Shown in pieces: positions 23,193-31,026 of a stretch of DNA of 64,000 nucleotides. Positions within the stretch are counted from its first letter, which is position 1; every line of letters begins with the position of its first letter. Location of the stretch: contig NZ_MBQD01000021.1 of NCBI RefSeq assembly GCF_001693815.1, positions 186,001 to 250,000 on the forward strand, in the 5' to 3' direction. The notes below the pieces were generated by a model. The model was not told the origin of the DNA and ran no database searches. It worked only from the letters and a program-made list of their open reading frames with translations. The translations under genes were made by a program, and so were the position numbers. Source of the DNA: Tessaracoccus lapidicaptus. GTDB taxonomy: Bacteria; Actinomycetota; Actinomycetes; Propionibacteriales; Propionibacteriaceae.

Positions 23193-24350
23193 TCAGCTCC
23201 CGAACAGTGCGTCGCGCGGGTTGGCCTGGTGCGCCTTCTCGGCGTACTCCTGCAGCGCGCGCTTGGCGTCGTCGGTCAGGCCGTCGGGCACCTGGACGTT
23301 GAGCGTCACCAGCAGGTCGCCCAGCGAGCCGTCCGGCTTGCGGGCGCCCTTGCCGCGGACCCGCATGGTGCGCCCGTTCGGCGTGCCCGGGGGGACGCGG
23401 AGCTTGACGTTGGGCCCGGCGAGGGTCGGGATGGTGATCTCCGCGCCCAGCGTCGCCTCCGTGAACGTGACCGGCACCTCCAGCGTGAGGTTGTGGCCCG
23501 TGCGCCCGAACAGCCGGTGGGGCGTCACCGCGACCGTCACGTACAGATCGCCCGGCGCACCGCCGTTCTCGCCGGCCGCGCCCTTGCCCTTGAGCCGGAT
23601 GCGCTGCCCGTCCGAGACGCCGGCCGGGATGCGGACCTGCATGGTCTTGGCGGACCGGCCGCGGCCGGAACCGGCGCAGTCGGGGCAGGGGGTGTCGACG
23701 ATCAGGCCGCGGCCCAGGCACTCCGTGCAGGGCTCGCTCATGTGGAAGACGCCGCCCGCCTGCGTGGACTGCATGCCGGAGCCCTCACACTTGGGGCAGA
23801 CGCGCGGCAGCGTGCCGGCCTTGGCGCCGGTCCCCCGGCACGACGGGCACGGCTGGTCGCTGATGGTGCGCATCGTGACGGTGGCGCCCTCGACGGCCTG
23901 CTCGAAGCTGATGGTCACGTCGCCTTCGATGTCGGCGCCGCGGCGGGGGCCGCGCTGCGTGGTGCGCCGCGTGCCCCCCGTCGCGCCGAACAGACCGCCG
24001 AACAGGTCGCCGAAGCCCGCCGTCGAGGCGGTGCCCCCGCCGGCGTTGCGGAAGAGGTCCTCGAACCCCGCCGGTCCGCCGCCCGGGCCGGGCTTGGAGA
24101 ACTTGAAGCCGCCGCCGAACAGGCTACGGGCCTCGTCGTACTCCTTGCGCTTCTCGGCGTCGCTGAGGATCGCGTTGGCCTCGGACGCCTCCTTGAACCG
24201 GGCGAGGGCGGCCTGGTCGTCGGGGTTCTGATCCGGGTGGTTGTCCCGGGCGATCCTCCGGAACGCCTTCTTGATGTCGTCGGCCGACGCGGTCTTGGAG
24301 ACGCCGAGGACCTTGTAGTAGTCCTTCTCGAGCCAGTCCTTCGTGCTCAT
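23193..24350 (-). CDS. dnaJ: Chaperone DnaJ
   Basis: 385-residue type I J-protein: J domain with HPD in RDNHPDQNPDD, Gly/Phe-rich stretch (about 80-125), zinc domain with four CxxCxGxG motifs (CPSCRGTG, CPKCEGSG, CTECLGRG, CPDCAGSG), and C-terminal substrate domains. Stimulates DnaK ATPase and hands over clients. An AAGGAG site precedes the ATG. Actinobacteria often carry a second dnaJ elsewhere; this is the one linked to hspR. Confidence 0.96.
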   Translation of the reverse strand: MSTKDWLEKDYYKVLGVSKTASADDIKKAFRRIARDNHPDQNPDDQAALARFKEASEANAILSDAEKRKEYDEARSLFGGGFKFSKPGPGGGPAGFEDLFRNAGGGTASTAGFGDLFGGLFGATGGTRRTTQRGPRRGADIEGDVTISFEQAVEGATVTMRTISDQPCPSCRGTGAKAGTLPRVCPKCEGSGMQSTQAGGVFHMSEPCTECLGRGLIVDTPCPDCAGSGRGRSAKTMQVRIPAGVSDGQRIRLKGKGAAGENGGAPGDLYVTVAVTPHRLFGRTGHNLTLEVPVTFTEATLGAEITIPTLAGPNVKLRVPPGTPNGRTMRVRGKGARKPDGSLGDLLVTLNVQVPDGLTDDAKRALQEYAEKAHQANPRDALFGS

Positions 24351-24382
24351 CTACTCGATCATCTCCTTTCGGCGTGGGTCGA

Positions 24383-24978
24383 TCAGGGGTGGGCGACGGC
24401 GACCCGCGCCGGGCGGATCACGCGGCCGTGCAGCGAATAGCCCTGCTGCATGACCTGGGAGACGGTGACGACCTCGACGGGCTGGTCGAGCGGCGCGGAC
24501 ATCAGCGCCTCGTGGCGGGTGGGGTCGAACTCCTCCCCCACGTCACCGAACGCGACCAGGCCGTGCTTGGCCGCCACCTTCTGCAGCTCGTCGGCGATCA
24601 TCTTGAATCCGCCCTCGAGGGTCTCGTGCTGCTTGGCCAGCTCGATGTGGTCGAGCACGGGCATGAGATCCCCGACGACGACCTCGATCCCGGCCTGGCG
24701 CGCCAGGTCCCGGTCGCGGTCGACGCGCTTCTTGTAGTTGACGTACTCGGCGTGGACCCGCTGGAGGTCGAGCGTCCGCTCGGCCACGAGGGACTCCAGC
24801 TCGGCGAGGCGCGCGTCACGCGGGTCCTGGTGGACGCCCCCCTCGTGCTCGTCGACGAGTGCTTCGGCCTCCTCGGCCCGCGCGTCGGCTGCTTCCATGT
24901 CCTGAACGGCCTCGGGCGAGGGTGCCGAGTCGGCACCCCCACCCTGAGCCTCGCCGTTCGGACCGAACTGCGAATCGG

Positions 24979-24982
<4 letters not shown>
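24383..24982 (-). CDS. grpE: Nucleotide exchange factor GrpE
   Basis: 199 residues: acidic disordered N-terminus, long coiled-coil ([18 protein letters not shown] onward) and a small beta domain with [13 protein letters not shown], the GrpE signature. Releases ADP from DnaK. Starts with a GTG overlapping the dnaK TGA (GTGA), so translation is coupled to dnaK. Confidence 0.95.
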
Positions 24983-26829
<1,847 letters not shown>

Positions 26830-26875
26830 GGGTTCCTCCTGTGTAGGTGGGTTCAAGTCTTCAAGTTCGATGGTT

Positions 26876-26896
26876 CTTGAGCCGAGCTGACTCAAG
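26876..26896 (-). promoter_or_regulatory. HAIR element 1 (HspR operator) of the dnaK operon
   Basis: CTTGAGC-N7-ACTCAAG, matching the HspR consensus with one change. It lies 47 nt upstream of the dnaK ATG and so around the expected promoter. Confidence 0.88.
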
Positions 26897-26928
26897 TTAA
26901 CCACAAGCCGGCGTCCCGCTCAAGCCGG

Positions 26929-28059: not shown

Positions 28060-29100
28060 TCAGAGGGTCGCGAGGTCGACGTTGCCGATGCCGGGGTTGT
28101 GGCGGCGGATGTCGAGCTTGCGCTCCAGATCCTCGATGATCGCGACCGAGAAGTTCTCCTCGTACAGCGACTGACAGCTGCCCAGCCCACCGGGGCTGAA
28201 CACGTTGACCTCCATGAGCTTGTCGCCCACGATGTCGAGCCCGACGAGGAACATGCCGTCGGCGACGAGCTTGGGCCGCACGACGTCGACCATGGCCAGC
28301 ATCTCGTCGGTCACCTTGACCGCGAATGCCTCACCGCCCGCGGACATGTTGGACCGGATGTCCGACCCGCTCGATTTGCGCCGGAAGGCCGCGTACTTGC
28401 CGTTGACGACGAGCGGCTTGCCGTTCATGACGAACATCCGCACGTCGCCGTTCTTCGCCTCCTCCAGATACTCCTGCGTCACGACGTAGCCGTCACGCGC
28501 GATGGCCTCGATGATCTGGTTGAGGTTCGGCGACTCGTCGGTGTTGACGAGGAAGACCCCGCTGCCCCCTGAGCCCTGCAGCGGCTTGAGGACAGCCCGC
28601 CCCCCGAGGTCGCTGACGAAGGAGGCGATCTGCTCGCGGTCGCGCGAGATGAGGGTGCGGGGTCGCACGACCTCCGGGAAGTGCTGGAAGTACGCCTTGG
28701 ACAGCGCGTTGGCCAGGCTGCCCGGGTCGTTGACCACCAGGACGCCGGTCGAGGCGATGAGCTGTCCGAACGCGACGCCGGCGTTGTTCGCCCACGCCGC
28801 CTCGTGCGCGTCGTCGGCGGGGTCGCTGCGCAGCATCACGACGTCCATCTCCGACAGCGTGACCCGCTCCTCCACCTCAGGCTTCTGCACGTCGTCGAGA
28901 TAGCGCTCGAGCGACCGGTAGTTTTTGCCCGTCACTCCCCGTGCCCGGGCGCTGAGCGAACCGTCCGGCTCGTAGGCGAAGTTGCCCATGCCGATGAGCC
29001 ACGCCTCGTGGCCCATGGTCGTGGCCTGCATGGCGAGCCGGGTCGTGGTGTACGTAGCCTTCTCGGTGAGGACGTCGTTGACGACGAATCCGATTCTCAT
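28060..29100 (-). CDS. ATP-grasp ligase, glutathione synthetase-like
   Basis: 346 residues. N-terminal MRIGFVVNDVLTEKATYTTTRLA and the central ATP-grasp part resemble GshB: KPLQGSGGSGVFLV (phosphate loop), VTQEYLEE, GDVRMFVMNG, GKYAAFRRK, and the metal site LVGLDIVGDKLMEVNVFSPGG. Such enzymes ligate an amino acid to a carboxylate with ATP. No gshA or other glutathione gene is nearby, so true glutathione synthesis is doubtful. It overlaps the QEGLA-motif gene upstream by 4 nt (ATGA), the third gene of an operon. Confidence 0.8.
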   Translation of the reverse strand: MRIGFVVNDVLTEKATYTTTRLAMQATTMGHEAWLIGMGNFAYEPDGSLSARARGVTGKNYRSLERYLDDVQKPEVEERVTLSEMDVVMLRSDPADDAHEAAWANNAGVAFGQLIASTGVLVVNDPGSLANALSKAYFQHFPEVVRPRTLISRDREQIASFVSDLGGRAVLKPLQGSGGSGVFLVNTDESPNLNQIIEAIARDGYVVTQEYLEEAKNGDVRMFVMNGKPLVVNGKYAAFRRKSSGSDIRSNMSAGGEAFAVKVTDEMLAMVDVVRPKLVADGMFLVGLDIVGDKLMEVNVFSPGGLGSCQSLYEENFSVAIIEDLERKLDIRRHNPGIGNVDLATL

Positions 29101-30269
29101 GCTGCAGCACCTTTCTGGATGAGTGCGGTGGGGTCGGTGGTCCGGGCCGCGACGTCGAGCCGCTCCCGTCCGGTCGGGTCGTCGAACCAGCGCGGGATGA
29201 GCACAGGCGGGTGCAGGACCCCGCGGGCCTCGAGGTCGTCGGCCAGCGGGAGGTCGACGAGGGAGAACTTCCCGAGGAACAGCGCATCGAGTGTCCCGCC
29301 GCGGCGCAGGTGCGCCAACAGGTCGAGCAGGCCGCGGAGATAGATCGCATCCTTGGTCAGGCCGCCGGAGCGGAAAACGCGCATGACGGTCGTGTAGGCG
29401 CCGCCCGGGTGGAAGCCCTCGTCGACGAGGGCGGACCAGCACTCGCGGAACCCGGCCCCACCGAGCATGCGGTGCACGCTGACGACCCGGCCGGCCAGCT
29501 GGCGCAGCCGGGTCGCGGTCAGCTCCCCGCTGGCGATCTCGGCCAGGACGGCGAGCCCCTCCTGCGTCTCGTCGTAGCCCGCCAGACCCGTGCCGAGCAC
29601 CTGGAGGGGCTGGTGCGAGCCGTTGACCTGGGTGACCAGGTGGGTCCCCACTTCGTGCTGGATCAGGGCCGTGGCACGGTCGCAGGCCACCGACGCCTCC
29701 GGTCCGATGAGCAGCAGGTTGCCGGAGACCATGACCCCGGTGGAGTCCGGCCGGATCTCGGCGTGGATGTCGACGTCGGGCTCGAGCGAGCGGTAGTAGT
29801 CGATCTCCTCGCGGGCCAGGTCGAGGAACTCCTCGGCTGTCAGCCGGTCCCCGCCCCAGGACTGCGGCTCGACCCGGGCCAGGATGGCGTCGGCCGCGGT
29901 GAGGAGGTCGGGGTGCACGCCTCCGTAGAGCTCCACGCTGAGCGTTCGGAAGTCGGCGGAGTCCCGCGCGCGGAGCATGGCCAGCTGCAGCCCGAGCTCG
30001 CGCTTCTTGCCCTCAAGCAGGGACGCGACGGTGCCGTCCCGCACCGCACCGACGTCGATGCGCTCGAGCACCGTTTGGAGCACCTCCGGATCGGTTTCGA
30101 GTTCGCGGTAGGTGAAGGTGGGCTCGTCGACGTCGCCGGCCAGGAAGGCGTCCTTGACGTCGTCGGCGTCGACCGGCGTCACGTCGAGGACGAACCGGAA
30201 GCTCTGCCCGAGCTGGGACAGCTGATGATCGATGGCGCGGTCGATGACCGCCACTGGGTTGTCAGTCAC
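29097..30269 (-). CDS. QEGLA-motif (DUF1704/tyrosine carboxypeptidase-like) metallopeptidase family protein
   Basis: 390 residues. Contains HEVGTH at 205-210 (His205, Glu206, His210) and Glu237 within YDETQEGLAVLAE, the spacing expected for a gluzincin zinc site. This matches the DUF1704 family, often annotated as flavohemoglobin expression-modulating QEGLA protein; eukaryotic relatives (MATCAP) are tyrosine carboxypeptidases. Peptidase activity here is inferred from motif and family. GTG start at 30269 overlaps the preceding gene by 8 nt. The middle gene of an amidohydrolase-peptidase-ligase operon. Confidence 0.78.
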   Translation of the reverse strand: MTDNPVAVIDRAIDHQLSQLGQSFRFVLDVTPVDADDVKDAFLAGDVDEPTFTYRELETDPEVLQTVLERIDVGAVRDGTVASLLEGKKRELGLQLAMLRARDSADFRTLSVELYGGVHPDLLTAADAILARVEPQSWGGDRLTAEEFLDLAREEIDYYRSLEPDVDIHAEIRPDSTGVMVSGNLLLIGPEASVACDRATALIQHEVGTHLVTQVNGSHQPLQVLGTGLAGYDETQEGLAVLAEIASGELTATRLRQLAGRVVSVHRMLGGAGFRECWSALVDEGFHPGGAYTTVMRVFRSGGLTKDAIYLRGLLDLLAHLRRGGTLDALFLGKFSLVDLPLADDLEARGVLHPPVLIPRWFDDPTGRERLDVAARTTDPTALIQKGAAA

Positions 30270-31026
30270 GGGGCAGCGCCTCCAGGACCGGGTCCATCGT
30301 GGCGGCGAGCGCCCGCGACAGGAAGGTGATGCGGTCGTCGTCGGGGACGCCCGTCCACTCGTCCATGAAGGTCTTCTTGAACTCGATCGCGAGCACGCAG
30401 CCGACGCCGGCGTAGCGGTCGTGGACCCACCAGGCAAGGTTCTGTCCCTTGAACTTCACGTTCTCGCGGATGTCGAAGCCCTGGCCGAGCATCGAGCCGC
30501 GGAACGCGTCGACCACGCCCTGGAAGCGGTCGAGATCTACCGAGCCGGTACCCAGGTTGATCTCCGGGTTCTCGACCCACGGCTCGGCGTCGGCCTCCTC
30601 ACCGTGGCGGCGGTGGTTGTAGGAGTGCACGTCGTAGAGGACGAAGGGGCCACGGGCCGCCACGGCGTCGAGGCGCTCCCCCAGCGCCGCGAAGAAGCCG
30701 TCATAGACCTCGAGCGAGCGAGCGACGACGTCGTCCGGGAGCGGATCGACCGACCACATGTGCAGGCCCCACGCGTCCTCGGGCCGGCGGTACACCGCCT
30801 TCTCCCGGACGCGGTTCAGATCGGTCTCGAAGCGCGAGCGGTGCACCCGCACCCTGGCGGGCGCCAGCGCCGCGATGCGGTCGGTGTAGGGGTCCTCCTC
30901 GCGGAACCGGTCGTCCTCGGGCAGCACCATCAGGTCTGCGACCTCCGGCCGCAGATCATGCCCCCCGTGGATGGACGTGGCGACGAGTTGCCCGGACCAG
31001 TCCCCGACGAATTCGAATGGTTCCAT
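30262..31026 (-). CDS. N-formylglutamate amidohydrolase family protein
   Basis: 254 residues of the N-formylglutamate amidohydrolase (zinc hydrolase) family: SIHGGHD near the N-terminus, VHRSRFETDLNR, VLYDVHSYNHRR and CVLAIEFKKTFMDE. Members cleave N-formyl-glutamate or related N-acyl amino acids. No hut (histidine degradation) genes are adjacent, arguing for another role. The ATG at 31026 (MEPFEFVG) is preceded by an AAGGAT box 6 nt upstream. First gene of the operon. Confidence 0.82.
   Translation of the reverse strand: MEPFEFVGDWSGQLVATSIHGGHDLRPEVADLMVLPEDDRFREEDPYTDRIAALAPARVRVHRSRFETDLNRVREKAVYRRPEDAWGLHMWSVDPLPDDVVARSLEVYDGFFAALGERLDAVAARGPFVLYDVHSYNHRRHGEEADAEPWVENPEINLGTGSVDLDRFQGVVDAFRGSMLGQGFDIRENVKFKGQNLAWWVHDRYAGVGCVLAIEFKKTFMDEWTGVPDDDRITFLSRALAATMDPVLEALPRD

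Follow-up and report, generated by a model that had tools for sequence, protein, structure and literature searches.

Three overlapping genes in Tessaracoccus lapidicaptus

The window analysed here, a 64,000-nucleotide stretch of the Tessaracoccus lapidicaptus genome, contains three genes that we call FG, MC, and GS and that are read in the order amidohydrolase, peptidase, ligase (Table 1). FG and MC overlap by 8 nt, and MC and GS by 4 nt (ATGA). A preliminary description of the locus had noted three overlapping genes with intact active-site motifs, including HEVGTH plus Glu237 in the middle protein and an ATP-grasp metal site in the third. All of these features were confirmed, and the Pfam matches of the proteins lie above the family cut-offs.

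Table 1. Genes and active-site features of the operon, in window positions
Feature	Position	Strand	Remarks
FG, FGase (N-formylglutamate amidohydrolase-like, PF05013)	30262..31026	-	ATG start, 254 aa, first gene
MC, MATCAP/DUF1704 gluzincin-type metallopeptidase (PF08014)	29097..30269	-	GTG start, 390 aa, second gene
GS, GshB/RimK-like ATP-grasp ligase (NF009110/PRK12458 subfamily)	28060..29100	-	ATG start, 346 aa, third gene
HEVGTH metal motif of MC (H205, E206, H210)	29640..29657	-	
E237 codon of MC (QEG motif), presumed third metal ligand	29559..29561	-	
Metal-binding E-x-N of GS (E297, N299)	28204..28212	-	equivalent to E. coli GshB E281/N283

A threonine synthase gene lies 52 nt upstream of the trio; it adjoins these genes only in the four closest relatives, so we rejected it as an operon member. 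Downstream, a convergent lactonase-family beta-propeller gene ends 3 nt from the GS stop. A promoter and terminator scan of the window region around the trio found none. The nearest relative in our genome collection has an MC of 89% identity. Just downstream of the convergent neighbour, dnaK (HSP70) and same-strand ORFs reading as grpE (24383-24982) and dnaJ (23193-24350) make up an ordinary chaperone cluster (23193-26904).

Conservation and co-inheritance

Related loci were gathered with MC alone as the query, which gave 70 loci, and partners were then sought by profile search. In 68 of the 70, FG, MC, and GS follow one another in this order on a single strand; the exceptions are L099, without a GS match, and L107, without FG. 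The phyla represented among these loci include Actinomycetota, Planctomycetota (Rhodopirellula, Roseimaritima), Acidobacteriota, and Campylobacterota (Hydrogenimonas), and the trio was found in bacteria of at least five phyla. Of about 68 related loci, 56 share the 4-nt overlap of MC and GS, which is therefore not a matter of chance. The distances computed for FG, MC, and GS are correlated (r = 0.84-0.92, compared with at most 0.37 in permutations), with host relatedness contributing to the correlation. GS has diverged least among them (mean distance 0.29 vs 0.41).

Presence is also all-or-none in the family of the host. Among 31 Propionibacteriaceae genomes, which are related and do not count as independent events, the 11 with MC all have FG together with a GS above the family cut-off; in the 20 without MC, FG is absent and no match to GS exceeds 22 bits. 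An additional Tessaracoccus (G416) has a divergent MC alone, with no partners in the stretch read. From the ligase side, 349 Pseudomonadota yielded ten GS-type ligases of at least 417 bits, nine of which adjoin MC; the tenth (G560) begins at base 48 of its contig and is cut by the contig end. The next GS score in this set is 177 bits and belongs to a GshB-type protein. The survey of co-occurrence and fixed order that the preliminary description had proposed thus speaks for the operon: neighbourhoods in relatives are not random, and the linkage is reciprocal. FG-MC-GS is a genuine co-inherited module.

Its distribution is patchy and accessory, plasmids included. Rhizobial plasmids bear the trio under the annotations N-formylglutamate amidohydrolase, QEGLA protein, and glutathione synthase; in Sinorhizobium meliloti 1021, it lies on pSymB at 1122942-1126743. 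In three actinobacteria (L231-L233), MC and GS occur as a pair and the stretch read contains no FG; a neighbouring FG is therefore not required in every case. The GS sequences of these three form a branch of their own inside the module clade. Across the loci, we found no conserved fourth gene and no conserved substrate, target, or transporter gene beside the trio.

Two loci have additional ligase genes. In Ensifer adhaerens, a second GS copy stands alone on a plasmid (L301); its neighbours are general-stress-type genes (CsbD, ferritin-like, PRC-barrel), and EcfG-like promoter motifs are frequent in this region. One planctomycete copy (L230) has two GS genes, in the order FG, GS, MC, GS.

The peptidase MC

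MC matches Pfam MATCAP (PF08014) at 259.2 bits (cut-off 27). Its predicted model (pLDDT 93.9) matches human MATCAP (7z6s) with Z 24.1 and rmsd 3.1 over 290 aligned residues, and the next fold follows at Z 16.8. The residues H205, E206, H210, and E237 are invariant in 24 and in 32 diverse members, so that zinc ligands are not lost in orthologues; E244, R254, R261, R297, K306, D307, Y310, and K334 are invariant among diverse members as well. The human TMCPs act as carboxypeptidases in the processing of tubulin tails and remove glutamates, and the glutamate of the EEG motif described for TMCP1 is equivalent to E237 of MC (PMC10499314). The fold and the conserved catalytic residues suggest that MC is a C-terminal carboxypeptidase.

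Against the TIGR02421 QEGLA equivalog, MC scores 278.8 bits, below the cut-off of 338.65, and the name "flavohemoglobin expression-modulating" should therefore not be transferred to it. The stand-alone TIGR02421-type MATCAP homologues are a different class and score lower against the module profile.

The amidohydrolase FG and its fusions with MC

FG matches Pfam FGase (PF05013) at 76.7 bits (cut-off 28.9) and has no NCBIfam match at E 0.1. Its conserved catalytic pattern comprises H20, E44, R65, DLNR, D132-x-H134-S, and E215; residues H20, E43, E44, R65, D69, N71, R72, D132, H134, and E215 are invariant among module members. In Tessaracoccus antarcticus (L047, 8345-10001), two tandem FGase genes lie upstream of MC, the first copy with N189 changed to E and G194 to P.

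The module occurs in three architectures. In actinobacteria, FG, MC, and GS are separate (type A). In Pseudomonadota, Planctomycetota, Acidobacteriota, and Campylobacterota, separate FG and GS genes flank an MC that has an N-terminal extension of about 250 residues (type B). In type B' (L217, L218, L219, L222, L227, L292), GS precedes a fused FG-MC. A separate in-frame fusion is found in Tessaracoccus sp. SD287 (L093, 9167-11152), where FG and MC share one open frame; this fusion is apparently independent of the proteobacterial ones.

For the type-B extension, hhalign gives a relationship with the FGase domain of type B' at a probability of 97.5%; the direct comparison with stand-alone FG is weak (33.8%). 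The best match of the AlphaFold model of the extension (pLDDT 80) is the N-formylglutamate amidohydrolase 2q7s (Z 12.2), ahead of the Agrobacterium protein 2odf (Z 10.4) and of M14-like and amidase folds at about 10. A Foldseek ranking had put forward purine nucleoside phosphorylases (TM ~0.37), to which we preferred the FGase match together with the profile link. In the alignment, the zinc-site histidines of the extension are replaced, and the fused FGase domain of L217 is also without active-site residues. The type-B extension thus looks like a degenerate, zinc-less pseudo-FGase fused to MC, with an intact FG gene beside it. Since the two are fused in some lineages of the module, we infer that FG and MC physically associate; together with the pseudo-FGase domain, this suggests that they most probably work as a single two-headed hydrolase complex.

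The ligase GS is very probably not a glutathione synthase

GS matches Pfam GSH-S_ATP at 161 bits (cut-off 23) and also has a GSH-S_N domain. It exceeds the cut-off of NF009110/PRK12458 (438.2 bits, cut-off 408), a family that bears the name glutathione synthetase, and falls below both GshB equivalogs, TIGR01380 (181.6 of 299.05) and NF003573 (199.3 of 272). The ATP and metal residues K135, K172, R221, R241, R249, D289, E297, and N299 are conserved, and K125, K160, R210, R225, R233, D273, E281, and N283 of GshB are kept in GS. GshB T288 is replaced by G in both module GS groups, and D9 by N or Y. In a tree of 19 GshB, 26 module GS, and 6 B' GS sequences, module GS and B' GS are separate, fully supported groups apart from GshB (module clade support 100/99), with long branches that call for caution on the relation of the two to each other.

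The genomic context points the same way. The preliminary description had noted that glutathione genes are absent nearby. This stands for the trio, beside which no gshA-type gene lies, but a GCS2-family gene is present elsewhere in the T. lapidicaptus genome. GCS2 occurs in 9 of the 11 module-bearing Propionibacteriaceae versus about half of the non-carriers, which rules it out as an obligatory partner. GshA (PF04262) was not found in 34 of 37 genomes tested, so it is not required as a partner of the ligase elsewhere. Four module-bearing genomes (G405, G442, G443, G445) yielded neither GshA nor GCS2, although metagenome drafts such as G442 and G445 may be incomplete. In another (G694), contig C1 bears a canonical GshB and a GshA separated by about 3 kb, and the module copy lies on C2. 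Because the equivalog cut-offs are missed, GS forms its own clade, neither GshA nor GCS2 was found in those four carriers, and a separate GshB exists in G694, we consider GS very probably not a glutathione synthase. The placement of the trio outside conventional glutathione metabolism, as first suggested for this locus, is thus very probably correct.

Regulation

A LysR-type regulator gene adjoins several proteobacterial copies of the module. EcfG-like promoter motifs lie 34 nt upstream of the Shinella copy and 333 nt upstream of the S. meliloti copy; the background frequency of strict sites is about one in 7.5 kb of strand. Two further rhizobial copies showed no such motif upstream. The LysR neighbour and these motifs weakly hint at a conditional metabolic role. 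At two proteobacterial loci (L220, 5237-5506; L223, 11539-11838), the interval that separates the LysR gene from the module encodes a small acidic protein of 90-100 aa with an apparent signal peptide.

Proposed function and alternatives

Our main reading, to which we give a probability of about 0.5, is that the trio is one module for making, editing, and recycling a small non-ribosomal peptide or amide, probably of a glutamate-like or glutathione-like kind. GS, with its intact GshB/RimK-type catalytic site, would activate a carboxylate with ATP and join an amino acid to it. MC, as a MATCAP-type metallo-carboxypeptidase, may trim C-terminal residues, and FG, judging from its fold and catalytic residues, may hydrolyse an N-acyl or amide linkage in the compound on which MC acts. 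The product would be a small, peptide-like accessory metabolite of stress or nutrition. A small-molecule pathway is favoured because the distribution is patchy and accessory with plasmids, a LysR gene lies at some copies, and no fourth gene is conserved; a small-molecule substrate fits this evidence somewhat better than a protein tail. Counting against the main reading, the trio has neither a conserved transporter gene nor additional conserved biosynthetic genes next to it, the MC-GS pairs of L231-L233 lack a nearby FG, and the second GS of Ensifer adhaerens stands alone.

A possible but less probable alternative, close to the write-and-erase idea of the preliminary description, is that the module adds an amino-acid tag to the C-terminus of a protein or ribosomal peptide and takes it off again, with GS writing, MC erasing, and FG trimming. 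GS would then act in analogy to RimK and tubulin tyrosine ligase, and MC to MATCAP on tubulin. GS does match RimK-type models too, and the fold and catalytic residues of MC are those of protein-tail carboxypeptidases such as the deglutamylating human TMCPs (PMC10499314), but no target or precursor gene is conserved beside the module, and a patchy accessory distribution is unusual for the modification of a core protein. It is doubtful that the module is a bacterial write/erase counterpart, possibly the ancestor, of the tubulin tyrosine ligase/MATCAP pair acting on C-terminal amino acids. A RiPP system was rejected on the lack of a conserved precursor or fourth gene beside the trio and on the 3-nt gap between GS and the convergent gene, the search for small ORFs being non-exhaustive.

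Somewhat less likely than such tagging is salvage or catabolism, in which MC and FG would dismantle an exogenous or cellular peptide and GS would rebuild a useful product from the fragments. The probable coupling of the two hydrolases, the LysR-type regulator beside several proteobacterial copies, and the plasmid location are all consistent with this, but GS shows the strongest conservation in the trio, which points to synthesis as the core activity, and no importer is conserved. Self-protection, with the hydrolases inactivating a peptide antibiotic or toxic peptide and GS modifying it, would suit the accessory distribution and the plasmid copies but is improbable, as the annotated neighbourhoods have no link to antibiotic or defence genes. 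Ordinary glutathione biosynthesis, with GS as a glutathione synthetase served by an unlinked gamma-glutamylcysteine ligase, has the family name and the GCS2 gene of T. lapidicaptus in its favour and is the least credible reading in view of the scores, clade, and gene content described above.

Significance and comparison with known systems

A literature search for the DUF1704, QEGLA, and PF08014 families and their combinations found no description of the module, although an earlier mention in comparative genomics is possible; Iyer et al., writing on amidoligases in Mol BioSyst in 2009, reportedly may mention such neighbourhoods. The FG-MC-GS pathway thus appears to be undescribed so far. The module is widespread and has been annotated piecemeal and misleadingly, as "glutathione synthase," "flavohemoglobin expression-modulating," and "N-formylglutamate amidohydrolase." The reciprocal linkage sets a distinct ligase clade apart from true GshB, an FG-MC complex that includes a pseudoenzyme subunit can be predicted, and bacterial relatives of a tubulin-tail peptidase gain a testable biochemical context. 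With the pSymB copy in S. meliloti 1021, a genetic model, the question of the substrate can be addressed directly.

Each member of the trio resembles a known system and departs from it. GS shares its domain architecture and ATP/Mg catalytic residues with E. coli GshB (1GSA) but differs in its separate clade, missed cut-offs, changes of T288 to G and D9 to N, and lack of an obligatory GshA. RimK/MptN-type ATP-grasp alpha-L-glutamate ligases give weaker but significant matches (57-79 bits), whereas their NCBIfam cut-offs are far from reached and GS has the GSH-S_N domain. FG is above the PF05013 cut-off and has the catalytic residues of the N-formylglutamate amidohydrolase (HutG) family, but it is coupled to MC and lacks an NCBIfam match, and its use of N-formylglutamate is putative. 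The TIGR02421 "flavohemoglobin expression-modulating QEGLA motif" proteins belong to the same superfamily as MC and have the same metal ligands, but the stand-alone proteins of this type (e.g., L132-L154) have no FG or GS beside them. Finally, MC shares its fold, the HExxxH + E site, and the K-D-x-x-Y-L region with the eukaryotic tubulin metallocarboxypeptidases MATCAP/TMCP (KIAA0895L, KIAA0895); at about 20% identity, it is a bacterial enzyme whose gene shares an operon with those of a ligase and an FGase.
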